The translations under genes and the position numbers were made by a program. From assembly GCA_903831085.1 (NCBI GenBank), contig CAIKWE010000020.1:1-64000 (forward strand): a DNA stretch of 64,000 nucleotides, read 5' to 3'. The notes below the pieces were generated by a model that saw only the letters and a program-made list of their open reading frames with translations, did not search any database and was not told the origin of the DNA. Position 1 is the stretch's first letter; each line of letters starts with the position of its first letter. Shown here piece after piece: positions 4,518 through 8,556 of this stretch. The stretch comes from an uncultured Verrucomicrobiota bacterium. GTDB taxonomy: Bacteria; Verrucomicrobiota; Kiritimatiellia; Kiritimatiellales; Tichowtungiaceae.

Positions 4518-4763
4518 GTGTAGTGTTATACCCTACATCAGAAGCGGCGGTCAACATATATTCTCTAACTTTTTTGATGTTTTTAATAGGCATCAGATAA
4601 CTGGAGTGTAGTGGGAAAATAACCCCGTTATAGGCAAAAACATCACAACTTTGTAGGCAAAGGTATTACAACGGAATTTTGGATTAGCCTTTGAATTGGG
4701 CCTGTAGGTGTAAAGAGGCGTTTTTAGGATGAGTTCTCTGGGTTTAGGCGTTACTGTCCCGGA

Positions 4764-7634
4764 ATGCATTTGATCGCCAAAGTCGCTGTCGACCTCTCTC
4801 TAGACCGGGAGTTCGACTATCTGATCCCCGAACCGCTCCGCCCTCTGGTCGAGATCGGCTCGCGGATCGAGGTGCCGTTCCGGTCGCGCAATGTCACCGG
4901 CTTCGTGGTCGGGTTTGCGGACAAGTCAGCTTTTGACGACCTCAAGCCGATCGGCAAAGTGCTGGGCGAAAAATCGCTGGTCAACGAAACGGTAATGGAA
5001 TTGGCGCGCTGGATGTCCGCCTATTATCTCGCTCCCTTCGAAACCTGTGTGCGCGCCGTTCTTCCTGCCGTCGTCCGTAACAAAGAAAGCGGTGGCAAGA
5101 AACAACTGACGGTTTCTTTGGTTAGCAATGTGGAAGAGGTAATGTGGCAGAGGCTTCCAGCCTCTGCGGCCAGCGGCAGGGATGCCGCTTCCACCATCAA
5201 CTATTTTGATCCTAAAGAACCGGTTGCCGATCTGAAAGGTACGCTTCCGCACTGGCGGCAGGATGGAACAACTTACTTCGTGACATTTCGACTTGCCGAT
5301 TCCTTGCCTCAGAAAAAGCTCAAGCAATGGACAAAAGAAAAAGAGCAGTGGTTGAGGGAACATCCTGAACCGCATAATGAGGCGACTCGGCATGAGTACT
5401 ATCAGATGTTTCCTGATCGACTGCAAAACTGGCTGGATGCAGGAGCTGGAAGTTGCCGACTTGCCAATCCTGAGGACAGAGAGATTGTAGAAGGTGCGCT
5501 GAAGAAATTTGATGGCGACCGATACCGGCTACAGGAGTTTGTTGTCATGCCCAACCATGTGCATGTACTGGTTTCACCGCTGGCGGACAATCTTCTATCT
5601 GATATTCTACACAGCTGGAAATCTTATACGGCGAGCGAATTAAACCGGCTCAGCGAAAGTTCAGGTGTCGTTTGGCAGAAAGAGTCATTCGACCACATTG
5701 TTCGAAGCGCAGAGCAACTGGCCCGTATTCGGAAATACATTCGTGATAATCCTTCTCAGTGTGGCAGAGGCTTCCAGCCTCTGCATACAGCGGCAGAGAT
5801 GCCGCTGCCACCTTTATCCGCTAAACAGCAGACGGTGATCCAATGCTTGGAAACGAACGGCCCGATGCTTTTGTCCGAGCTGACGGAAGCCGCAGGCGTG
5901 ACCGCCGCGCCGGTGAAGGCGCTGGGGAAAAAAGGTCTGGTGAAAATTTCCAACGAGTCGGTTTACCGCGATCCGCACGAAGGCATCGAACTGCTGAAGA
6001 CCGAACCGCTGCCGCTAATGGAACAGCAGACCGTCGCGCTGAAACAGATTATTGAAGCAATGGATGAGCCGGAACCGCCGGTGGTTCTGTTGCACGGCGT
6101 AACCGGCTCGGGCAAGACAGAAGTTTATTTGCAGGCCATTTCCCATGCGCTGGAGCAGGGTCGCGGTGCGATTGTGCTTGTTCCGGAAATCGCGCTGACG
6201 CCGCAAACCGTCGACCGTTTCCGCTCGCGCTTTGCCGATAAGCCGGAGCGGGTGGCCGTTCTGCACAGTTCACTTTCGGACGGCGAGCGCTACGACGAGT
6301 GGCATCGCATCCGCTCCGGCGAAGCGAAGATTGTGGTCGGTGCGCGCTCGGCGCTGTTTGCGCCGGTGCACAACCTCGGCCTGATCGTGGTGGACGAGGA
6401 GCACGAGCCGACCTACAAGCAGGACGAAGCGCCGCGCTACAGCGCCCGCGACACGGCGGTGATGCGCGGAAAGATGGAGAAGTGCGCGGTGGTGCTTGGC
6501 TCGGCGACGCCCGCGCTCGAATCGTACTGCAATGCGAAGAGCGGCAAGTACCGCTATGCCGACCTGCCGATCCGCGTGGACGACCGCCAGATGCCGCTGA
6601 TGCGGATTATTGACATGCGCATTGCGGCTCAGCAGGAAGGCAAGCCGGTTCTGTTTTCGCGCGAGCTGGTCGAAGCAATCCGCATCCGGCTCGACCGCGC
6701 CGAGCAGACGATGATTTTTCTGAACCGCCGCGGCTTTTCCGCGTCGCTGCTTTGTCCCGAGTGCGGCTATGTGGCGGAATGCGACCATTGCAGTGTCGGC
6801 ATGACCTATCACAAAGCGCGGGCGCGGCTGGTCTGCCATATCTGCGGTGAAGAAAAGGCTGTGCCGAAACACTGTCCCGCCTGCCAGTCGCCGGAGTTCC
6901 GCCATGGCGGTGCCGGCACCGAAAAAATTGAAGAAGTAATGACGAAACTTTTCCCGAAGGCGCGGATTGAGCGGATGGATTCCGACACGATGAGGCGCAA
7001 AAACGCGCACCGCGATGTGCTGGGAAAATTCCGGACGGGCAAAATTGATATTCTGATCGGCACGCAGATGATCGCCAAGGGGCTGGATTTTCCGAACGTC
7101 ACGCTGGTCGGTGTGGTGAATCCCGATCACGCGTTGCACATGGCCGACTTCCGCGCGGGCGAGCGGGTGTTTCATCTGCTGACGCAGGTGGCGGGGCGCG
7201 CGGGGCGTGGCGAGGCGGCGGGCGAGGTGATTGTGCAAACCTACACGCCGCACCATCCGGCGGTGCAGGCCGCGCGGCGCGGTGATTTTGAGGGCTTCTG
7301 CGATCAGGAACTGGCGTTCCGCAAAGAGCTTGGCTATCCGCCGTACAGTCATTTAACGTGCATTACCCTGCGCGGAAAAAATGAGACCGAGGTGCAGGCG
7401 GCGGCGGGAAAACTTTTCCAAAGATTGGAATCCTGCGTGGCGGGCAAAGCCGTACTTTCACCGGCGATTCCCGCGCCGATTGCCCGGATGCGCGGCGAAT
7501 ACCGCTGGCAGATTTTATTGCGCGCGGCGCGGACAAAGACGATGAATGACGCCATCCGCGCGGCATTCGGGGCGATCAAGTGGCCGAAGACGGTCAAGGT
7601 GACGGTGGATGTGGATGCGACGTCTCTCTTGTAG
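4764..7634 (+). CDS. priA: primosomal helicase PriA with an in-frame REP-associated transposase insert
   Basis: PriA restarts collapsed replication forks; it is an SF2 3'-5' helicase that binds fork DNA and loads the primosome. The 956-residue ORF equals a normal PriA (about 735) plus about 220 inserted residues. Residues 1-126 are the 3'-DNA-binding domain (REFDYLIP, YYLAPFETCVRAVLP). Residues about 127-350 are a Y1 (HUH) transposase. PriA resumes with LSAKQQTVIQCLE and GPMLLSEL. Helicase motifs follow: Walker A GVTGSGKT (445-452), VDEEHEPTYKQ, zinc cysteines CPECGY, CDHC, CHICGE and CPAC, and QMIAKGLDFPNV with QVAGRAGRG. The insert lies in the linker before the winged-helix region, where a surface domain may be tolerated. 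The frame stays open throughout. Confidence 0.93.
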   Translation: MHLIAKVAVDLSLDREFDYLIPEPLRPLVEIGSRIEVPFRSRNVTGFVVGFADKSAFDDLKPIGKVLGEKSLVNETVMELARWMSAYYLAPFETCVRAVLPAVVRNKESGGKKQLTVSLVSNVEEVMWQRLPASAASGRDAASTINYFDPKEPVADLKGTLPHWRQDGTTYFVTFRLADSLPQKKLKQWTKEKEQWLREHPEPHNEATRHEYYQMFPDRLQNWLDAGAGSCRLANPEDREIVEGALKKFDGDRYRLQEFVVMPNHVHVLVSPLADNLLSDILHSWKSYTASELNRLSESSGVVWQKESFDHIVRSAEQLARIRKYIRDNPSQCGRGFQPLHTAAEMPLPPLSAKQQTVIQCLETNGPMLLSELTEAAGVTAAPVKALGKKGLVKISNESVYRDPHEGIELLKTEPLPLMEQQTVALKQIIEAMDEPEPPVVLLHGVTGSGKTEVYLQAISHALEQGRGAIVLVPEIALTPQTVDRFRSRFADKPERVAVLHSSLSDGERYDEWHRIRSGEAKIVVGARSALFAPVHNLGLIVVDEEHEPTYKQDEAPRYSARDTAVMRGKMEKCAVVLGSATPALESYCNAKSGKYRYADLPIRVDDRQMPLMRIIDMRIAAQQEGKPVLFSRELVEAIRIRLDRAEQTMIFLNRRGFSASLLCPECGYVAECDHCSVGMTYHKARARLVCHICGEEKAVPKHCPACQSPEFRHGGAGTEKIEEVMTKLFPKARIERMDSDTMRRKNAHRDVLGKFRTGKIDILIGTQMIAKGLDFPNVTLVGVVNPDHALHMADFRAGERVFHLLTQVAGRAGRGEAAGEVIVQTYTPHHPAVQAARRGDFEGFCDQELAFRKELGYPPYSHLTCITLRGKNETEVQAAAGKLFQRLESCVAGKAVLSPAIPAPIARMRGEYRWQILLRAARTKTMNDAIRAAFGAIKWPKTVKVTVDVDATSLL
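5144..5195. repeat. REP-like paired hairpin, left flank of the transposase
   Basis: Two hairpins in 52 bases: GCAGAGGC-TTCCA-GCCTCTGC, then AGCGGCA-GGGA-TGCCGCT, with GTGG at the left end and CCAC near the right. Same orientation and nearly the same sequence as 5761-5812. It is translated in the priA frame. Confidence 0.85.
5761..5812. repeat. REP-like paired hairpin, right flank of the transposase
   Basis: Same architecture as 5144-5195: GCAGAGGC...GCCTCTGC, then AGCGGCA...TGCCGCT, with fully complementary outer ends GTGGCAG and CTGCCAC. The pair brackets the transposase inside priA. Confidence 0.85.
7415..7430. repeat. TTTCCAA-N3-TTGGAA palindrome inside priA
   Basis: A copy of the window-wide near-palindrome, within the codons for KLFQRLES of PriA. 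Confidence 0.6.
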
Positions 7635-7653
7635 CGGAACGGAGGAATGAACT

Positions 7654-8556
7654 ATGTATTTTGCGACCTATGAAAAAGACGGCGCTGTCGCCATCGGAGT
7701 TTTGACGCAGGACAAGAGCTCGATCATTCCACTCGCCGCTGCGGAGCGCCAGTGCCTGAAAACCGCGACACTGCCGGAGACGATGCTGGAATTTCTTGAT
7801 CAGGGCCAAAGCGCTGTCGATACGGTTAGAAAACTTTTAGCGCAATCCGCCGTCTGTCCGCAGATTCCGCTGTCTGCGGTCAAGCTGCTGGCGCCCATTC
7901 CCCGTCCGCGGAAAAATATTTTCTGCATCGGGAAAAATTATGTGGATCACGTTCTGGAGTTTGACAAAACGAAATCCGCCGATGCGGCGCTTCCCAAGCA
8001 CCCGGTCATCTTTTCCAAGCCGCCGACGGCGGTTATCGGGCCTGATGAATTGATCAACAGTCACAGTCAGATCACGCGCGAACTGGACTACGAAGTGGAG
8101 CTGGCGGTCGTCATTGGAAAAAAGGGAACCTGTATTTCCCGCGAGCAGGCCGAGGATTATATTTTCGGGTACACGATACTCAACGATGTCACGGCGCGGG
8201 ATTTGCAGAAAGCGCACATGCAGTGGTTCCGCGGCAAAGGTCTCGATACCTTTGCGCCTATGGGGCCTTATCTGGTGCACAAAAGCGTTGTCGCCGATGC
8301 CGGGAACCTGTCGATCTCGTTAAAGGTGAATGGTGAAATCCGCCAAAACTCCCGCACGAGCGAACTCATTTTTAAAATTCCTGAACTGATTGCCGTGATA
8401 TCAGCCGGTCTAACGCTGGAACCCGGCGACATCATTGCCACCGGCACACCCGCCGGAGTCGGCATGGGATTCACGCCGCCCCGCTTTCTGAAAAAAGGTG
8501 ACCGGCTGGAATTGAGTATTGGCGAACTGGGCGTCTTAAAGAATACTGTCGGATAA
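7654..8556 (+). CDS. fumarylacetoacetate hydrolase (FAH) family protein
   Basis: A 300-residue FAH-superfamily enzyme, which cleaves or isomerises C-C bonds in beta-diketone or acylpyruvate-like acids using a divalent metal. The catalytic C-terminal domain runs from about residue 80: FCIGKNYVDHVLEF, PVIFSKPPTAVIGP, the metal-ligand block LDYEVELAVVIGKKG (two Glu), GYTILNDVTARDLQ (Asp ligand), KGLDTFAPMGPYLV, and LEPGDIIATGTPAGVGMG. The exact substrate cannot be assigned; these features fit acylpyruvase, oxaloacetate tautomerase/decarboxylase or hydroxyhepta-dienedioate isomerase types. GGAGG ten bases before ATG 7654 supports the start. It follows priA by 19 bases. Confidence 0.88.
   Translation: MYFATYEKDGAVAIGVLTQDKSSIIPLAAAERQCLKTATLPETMLEFLDQGQSAVDTVRKLLAQSAVCPQIPLSAVKLLAPIPRPRKNIFCIGKNYVDHVLEFDKTKSADAALPKHPVIFSKPPTAVIGPDELINSHSQITRELDYEVELAVVIGKKGTCISREQAEDYIFGYTILNDVTARDLQKAHMQWFRGKGLDTFAPMGPYLVHKSVVADAGNLSISLKVNGEIRQNSRTSELIFKIPELIAVISAGLTLEPGDIIATGTPAGVGMGFTPPRFLKKGDRLELSIGELGVLKNTVG

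Follow-up and report, generated by a model that had tools for sequence, protein, structure and literature searches.

The window analysed here, a stretch of 64,000 nucleotides from an uncultured Verrucomicrobiota bacterium, carries a priA gene whose single open frame also encodes a REP-associated Y1/HUH transposase (RAYT) and the two REP double hairpins that flank it (Table 1). In the 956-residue product, the Pfam domains all score above their curated cut-offs and comprise the PriA 3'-DNA-binding domain (residues 6-101), Y1_Tnp (252-328), DEAD (439-584), Helicase_C, the zinc ribbon (673-698) and PriA_C (860-951). Membership of the PriA family is given by NF004066 (primosomal protein N', 885 bits against a cut-off of 813) and TIGR00595 (662 against 230), and the Y1 domain is matched by PF01797 with 32.5 bits against a cut-off of 23. 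The RAYT lies below the cut-off of the NCBI equivalog NF047646 (59.7 vs 80 bits); the other embedded RAYTs scanned scored 52.1-78.1 and 60.7-80.4 bits, and only that of locus L131 reached at least 80.

Table 1. Features of the priA locus, with positions in the window.
Feature	Position	Strand	Size or basis
priA ORF with embedded RAYT	4764..7634	+	956 aa, one frame open throughout
PriA 3'-DNA-binding domain (aa 6-101)	4779..5066	+	PF17764
Left REP double hairpin, GTGG ... CCAC, in-frame	5144..5195	+	Fold vs shuffles; dispersed copies
RAYT / Y1 HUH transposase domain (aa 143-335)	5190..5768	+	Profiles, alignment, AlphaFold2 model, Foldseek
HUH motif H265-V-H267	5556..5564	+	H columns invariant in RAYT alignment
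Catalytic tyrosine Y325	5736..5738	+	Nearly invariant alignment column
Right REP double hairpin, GTGG ... CCAC, in-frame	5761..5812	+	Repeat comparison, fold vs shuffles
PriA remainder from aa 352: DEAD, Helicase_C, Zn ribbon, PriA_C	5817..7634	+	Pfam/NCBIfam

Residues 265, 267 and 325 correspond to the HUH and Y columns (H123, H125 and Y183) of the RAYT alignment. The two REP copies, of 53 nt each, are 91% identical, with starts 617 nt apart, and as single-stranded DNA they fold into double hairpins (z -4.6 and -6.1) that none of 200 shuffles equalled in stability. The AlphaFold2 model of the RAYT has a mean pLDDT of 76.9, with a confident core and REP-encoded ends (model residues 1-26 and 229-241) below 50, and its best Foldseek match is 4er8, a RAYT with bound REP hairpin (E 1e-5). 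An earlier, sequence-only reading of this DNA had described one PriA ORF holding a Y1/HUH transposase with these three residues as catalytic, a flanking REP pair read through in frame, and an insert in the linker after the 3'-DNA-binding domain that leaves all PriA motifs in place. This anatomy is borne out by the open frame and the Pfam and NCBIfam domains, by the alignment columns, and by repeat comparison and folding.

The window belongs to a draft genome of 2.14 Mb in 60 contigs, 94.6% complete. No second priA, which the sequence-only reading had regarded as evidence against the fusion, was found in this draft, where the other two priA matches are parts of a single 1034-aa frame with 31-32% identity. 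The PriA copy is also the sole match to PF01797 at E <= 0.001 in this genome. A second, distant RAYT-like ORF on contig C11 (L115:11925-13067) scores 54.9 bits with NF047646 and 17.9 bits with PF01797, below the cut-off of 23; it presents the motifs MPNHFH and YIRNNP, ends in a stop codon of its own and may have a start. No match was seen between its two flanks, or between either flank and the window REP. A short repeat lies 3' of its stop.

Dispersed cognate REPs with up to 3 mismatches occur in the same genome at 9 places for the left hairpin and 14 for the right, where some places pair up as halves of a single element and L288, among the 14, resembles ordinary coding sequence; the reversed patterns gave 0. 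Certain copies lie within ORFs that are still open and that Pfam assigns to radical SAM/methyltransferase, Mur ligase, chorismate-binding/aminotransferase (twice) and PD-(D/E)XK proteins. REP pairs without a transposase are found in these ORFs at L117:2600-4429, L117:9281-12325, L116:3072-4388 and L115:5225-7039, while others of the dispersed REPs are outside any ORF longer than 160 aa. A REP pair is additionally seen in a 308-aa ORF (L283:940-1863 and L284:911-1834, one place in the genome), which has an SNPPY motif and by eye resembles a methyltransferase of the PrmC kind. Given the ORF on contig C11, the PriA RAYT is not the sole possible REP-moving enzyme of this genome. If the REPs still move, the PriA RAYT would be the likelier mover, since it is the only one of the two RAYT-like ORFs that is bracketed by these REPs.

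Embedding of this kind extends to other host proteins. RAYT relatives are present in 48 of the 58 related genomes, a set in which each genome has some match to the fusion query, the matches in some (such as G022, G039 and G042) being weak or to the RAYT only, so that PriA itself is evident in just part of the set. The 57 hit-bearing ORFs longer than 300 aa form 15 flank groups, including PriA (15), CCA/poly(A) polymerase (10), XseA (9) and B12-radical SAM proteins (9); the ORF selection favours in-frame cases, and these counts cover in-frame insertions. The classes (embedded, stand-alone, host gene) are manual assignments based on how far the ORFs extend and which families they match. Hosts were named by Pfam and NCBIfam for the scanned rows, a part of the 57 ORFs, and in this set comprise XseA, PolyA_pol/CCA, B12-rSAM/DUF4080, CmoB, MvaD, HypF, Eco57I and HsdR. 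With the hosts of the wider scan described next included, close in-frame relatives of the window RAYT reside in about 19 recognisable host protein families.

A wider scan of 84,980 species genomes gave 422 relatives, of which the best 80 were taken. In these and 4 viral relatives, 84 loci in total, the RAYT lies well inside a longer ORF in 27. The hosts among the best 80 of the 422 include CarB, valine- and leucine-tRNA ligases, GcpE/IspG, MetH, MmeI, Eco57I and HsdR, as well as adenosine deaminase, a dehydrogenase/oxidoreductase, a FabZ-like (FabA-like) protein and a DUF1156 protein. With regard to the valine-tRNA ligases, two hosts score above the cut-off of 704 bits (L131 with 783, L188 with 1047) and a third, L163, which is cut by the contig end, scores 664. 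The host domain is recognised on one side only in the adenosine deaminase (L138), the DUF1156 protein (L202), L163 and L190, and no Pfam family at E <= 1e-5 was found for the hosts of the internal RAYTs in L158 and L194 or the C-terminal ones in L180 and L192. TatD, ThiD-like and Fic proteins carry the RAYT as a C-terminal extension (L105, L107, L112 and L091:932-2695). Tandem runs of REP-encoded peptides stand beside the embedded RAYT in L084 and L090. Phage carriage was also considered and rejected; the viral contigs gave the 4 relatives mentioned, of which 3 are weak, and the ORFs that hold them measure 145-252 aa.

Among the matches listed, internal RAYTs come mostly from Verrucomicrobiota and Planctomycetota, with single cases in Flavobacterium branchiophilum NBRC 15030, Brocadia, Methylomirabilis, Ignavibacteriales, Methylobacter and Gallionellaceae. 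A further sample, of 115 genomes from the phylum, contained 24 genomes with matches at E <= 1e-40. Their 43 matches fall into 16 in frames of at least 444 aa and 27 in frames of 186-299 aa, with none between; half of the long-frame matches (8 of 16) belong to the window's own order.

The enzyme is well conserved. The HuH motif is kept in all 73 embedded and all 49 stand-alone rows and the strict Y pattern in 69 and 47 of them, respectively, and a tyrosine is visible by eye in three of the four remaining embedded rows. Of 18 pairs of PriA-embedded RAYTs, 14 gave a dN/dS of 0.06-0.19 and 4 could not be computed; dS was often close to saturation. The GC3 of these RAYTs is lower than that of either flanking part of PriA in 9 of 9 rows (0.47 in the window, against 0.73 and 0.75). 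Flank tests were applied to the 68 of 73 embedded rows with a full core and sufficient flank. Hairpins tagged with GTRG and CYAC occur on both flanks in 47 of these and in 21 of 47 stand-alone rows, compared with a fraction of 0.00 for shuffled flanks; both-side tags were not found in 21 of the 68, including most of the radical-SAM/HypF group. In 43 of the 68, the direct similarity of the two flanks equals or exceeds the 99% point of the values for mismatched pairs.

The transposase could be a passenger with a start of its own inside the ORF, its readthrough in the host frame being no more than tolerated, and the window does have an ATG at 5142, which the sequence-only reading had named as a possible start of a separate transposase. 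However, this ATG is not conserved in relatives and a separate start there is therefore unlikely. More generally, in 44 rows (PriA, XseA, PcnB, radical SAM and a single Fic fusion) no ATG position in the stretch from the host part to the RAYT core is common to the rows, and the methionines shared by the PcnB rows lie in the host part. Independent production of the RAYT is thus an improbable account, though it retains some weight.

The insert could instead be removed from the RNA or the protein, as an intron or intein would be. Like inteins, the embedded RAYTs are in frame, in housekeeping genes, in lineages sorted by site and patchy in presence, which is what favours hidden splicing. Nevertheless, no Rfam family, including any known intron RNA, scored above its gathering score in positions 4700-7700, where only four sub-threshold matches were obtained, and no Hint/intein domain is among the listed Pfam matches of the window ORF and the scanned embedded rows. 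The elements differ from inteins in having no splicing domain that could be found and a RAYT in place of the homing endonuclease. The insertion points speak against it too: the 20 host columns around them are at the 4th conservation percentile in PriA (26 rows) and the 6th in PcnB (30 rows), that is, in poorly conserved loops, while inteins sit in conserved motifs and not in such loops. In XseA the corresponding value is the 43rd percentile (27 rows), and the surroundings of the insertion are not notably variable there. Splicing of either kind is accordingly very unlikely.

The sequence-only reading had proposed comparing priA in related genomes at the insertion site, and this comparison shows that the arrangement recurs: RAYTs occupy the site in 14 relatives in which it is readable, and all PriA inserts are in the same linker. 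The frame continues across the site, filled or empty, in 28 of 29 rows, the 29th being unreadable there. The 28 rows comprise 10 with a RAYT of type A, 5 with type B, 5 with a lone REP plus 1 doubtful, 2 short and 5 without an insert. In the PriA tree, built from these 28 rows of the 58 genomes and omitting partial rows (L029, L041, L129, L130) and genomes for which no locus was fetched, RAYT presence requires 9 changes, and the clustering of type A labels is at chance level (102 of 500 shuffles as low). The window PriA (type A) falls in a supported group (98/93) with its closest relatives, G008 with type B, G004 with a full REP pair and G009 with a single hairpin. Despite their different REPs and RAYT types, most elements at the junctions listed have GTGG or GTAG at the start and CCAC or CTAC at the end, and their positions in PriA nearly coincide. 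The type B RAYT in L018 (PriA of G008) and L019 (PriA of G003) seems to contain a further in-frame REP-encoded stretch at the junction of its N-terminal part and HUH core. In L019 an H stands where the catalytic tyrosine is expected; this copy may be dead while keeping its frame.

This variability weighs on the proposal that the RAYT was recruited as an HUH nuclease for PriA, the new fork nuclease of the sequence-only reading. PriA acts at forks with single-stranded DNA, and the kept catalytic residues and visible purifying selection would agree with such a role. Yet the same RAYT family resides in many unrelated host proteins, and within PriA it is patchy, varying among close relatives, with two types at one site. 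A PriA-specific nuclease is rejected for these two reasons and can be given only a very small probability. An assembly or binning artefact, conceivable for a window from a draft genome of many contigs, has a negligible probability because the fusion recurs in other genomes, including G024; this recurrence also speaks against a mis-assembled insertion, which the sequence-only reading had named as a refutation.

Turnover at fixed sites appears in sequence comparisons as well. In G003 and G011 the PriA flanks are 95-96% identical while the RAYTs are 78% identical (dS 0.20-0.45 vs 1.86), and this contrast between near-identical flanks and divergent RAYTs points to replacement of the RAYT, a reading weakened by a faster RAYT clock and different GC3. 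Other PriA pairs are closer to common descent with a somewhat faster RAYT. At the XseA site, the insert, with ends GTAG...CTAC, is present in G007, G008, G013 and six genomes of the sister family, and the site is empty in the window genome, G004, G005 and G009. The RAYT tree groups by host gene, with 38 label changes compared to a shuffled mean of 82 (0 of 200 shuffles as low). A single PriA clade is not rejected (p-AU 0.83), and the branches behind XseA and PcnB have SH-aLRT values of 93 and 92 and are not starred. The rows from MvaD, CmoB, HypF and Fic lie close to or inside the groups of other hosts, as jumps between genes would give.

The nearest known system is the REPtron, formed by a RAYT (TnpAREP; 4er8) and its REPs, with which the window element shares a Y1 HUH enzyme, GTAG- or GTGG-headed hairpins on both sides and dispersed cognate REPs. 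In the papers covered, however, RAYTs are stand-alone genes beside REPs, whereas the window RAYT has no stop of its own and is part of a host protein. In the available part of PMC3733652, REPs are described within genes, often ones for repair, intragenic GTAG repeats are most numerous in Opitutus terrae, RAYT genes are taken as genes close to REPs, and Rickettsia-type (CGTC) repeats have no associated transposase gene; no RAYT inside a gene is reported in that part. Intragenic REPs and the Rickettsia palindromic elements, the latter a resemblance only, going by the descriptions in the excerpts of PMC3733652 and PMC10969869, are likewise in-frame palindromes in housekeeping genes, many for DNA repair, but they are short and carry no transposase, whereas the insert in the window brings the transposase along in the same frame. 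Furthermore, Y1 proteins of unexpected length were discarded in PMC6006769, according to the part available, and the available text of the Pontiella description (PMC7356697) does not mention 'transposase'. In-frame REPs are thus already published, while no description of in-frame RAYTs was found in searches of the open-access PMC literature.

The in-frame anatomy, the many hosts, the kept catalytic residues, the low dN/dS, the bilateral and dispersed REPs and the patchy presence in PriA can all be read from the sequences, and a REPtron in housekeeping proteins is a real and recurrent arrangement. The window element is probably an ORF-embedded REPtron, stopless and in frame in a permissive loop and translated together with its host protein. 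A stopless RAYT gene whose REP ends are open in the host frame would sit where a housekeeping gene encodes such a loop, and transcription and translation of that gene would yield the RAYT as one domain of its product. The fusion protein would be a working transposase and, by analogy with TnpAREP, which in the part of PMC8266576 available cleaves single-stranded REPs in vitro with a role for the GTAG tetranucleotide, would act on single-stranded REPs. Only in-frame copies in tolerant loops would survive, expressed through the host gene, and PriA would presumably stay functional without splicing. Among the three options of the sequence-only reading, a tolerated insertion and an intein-like element fit the ORF-embedded REPtron best.

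We infer that RAYT lineages hold fixed sites by movement rather than by descent. A broader proposal, which we put forward tentatively as the less probable side of the matter, is that these elements form a class of transposons whose transposase is never made except inside a host housekeeping protein, as one of its internal domains. Each lineage would be tied to one site (PriA, XseA, CCA polymerase), where it would spread or be exchanged in the manner of an intein allele but with no splicing, and the lone REPs would be landing pads or scars. On this proposal, PriA and XseA as hosts might in addition carry the enzyme to single-stranded DNA.

Embedded RAYTs are an autonomous counterpart to in-frame palindromic repeats, and they show a route by which a transposon can inhabit essential genes and leave them intact. 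They also make it testable how an element that does not splice comes to be distributed like an intein. For annotation, a match to a Y1 transposase calls for caution, as it can be a domain of a housekeeping protein.
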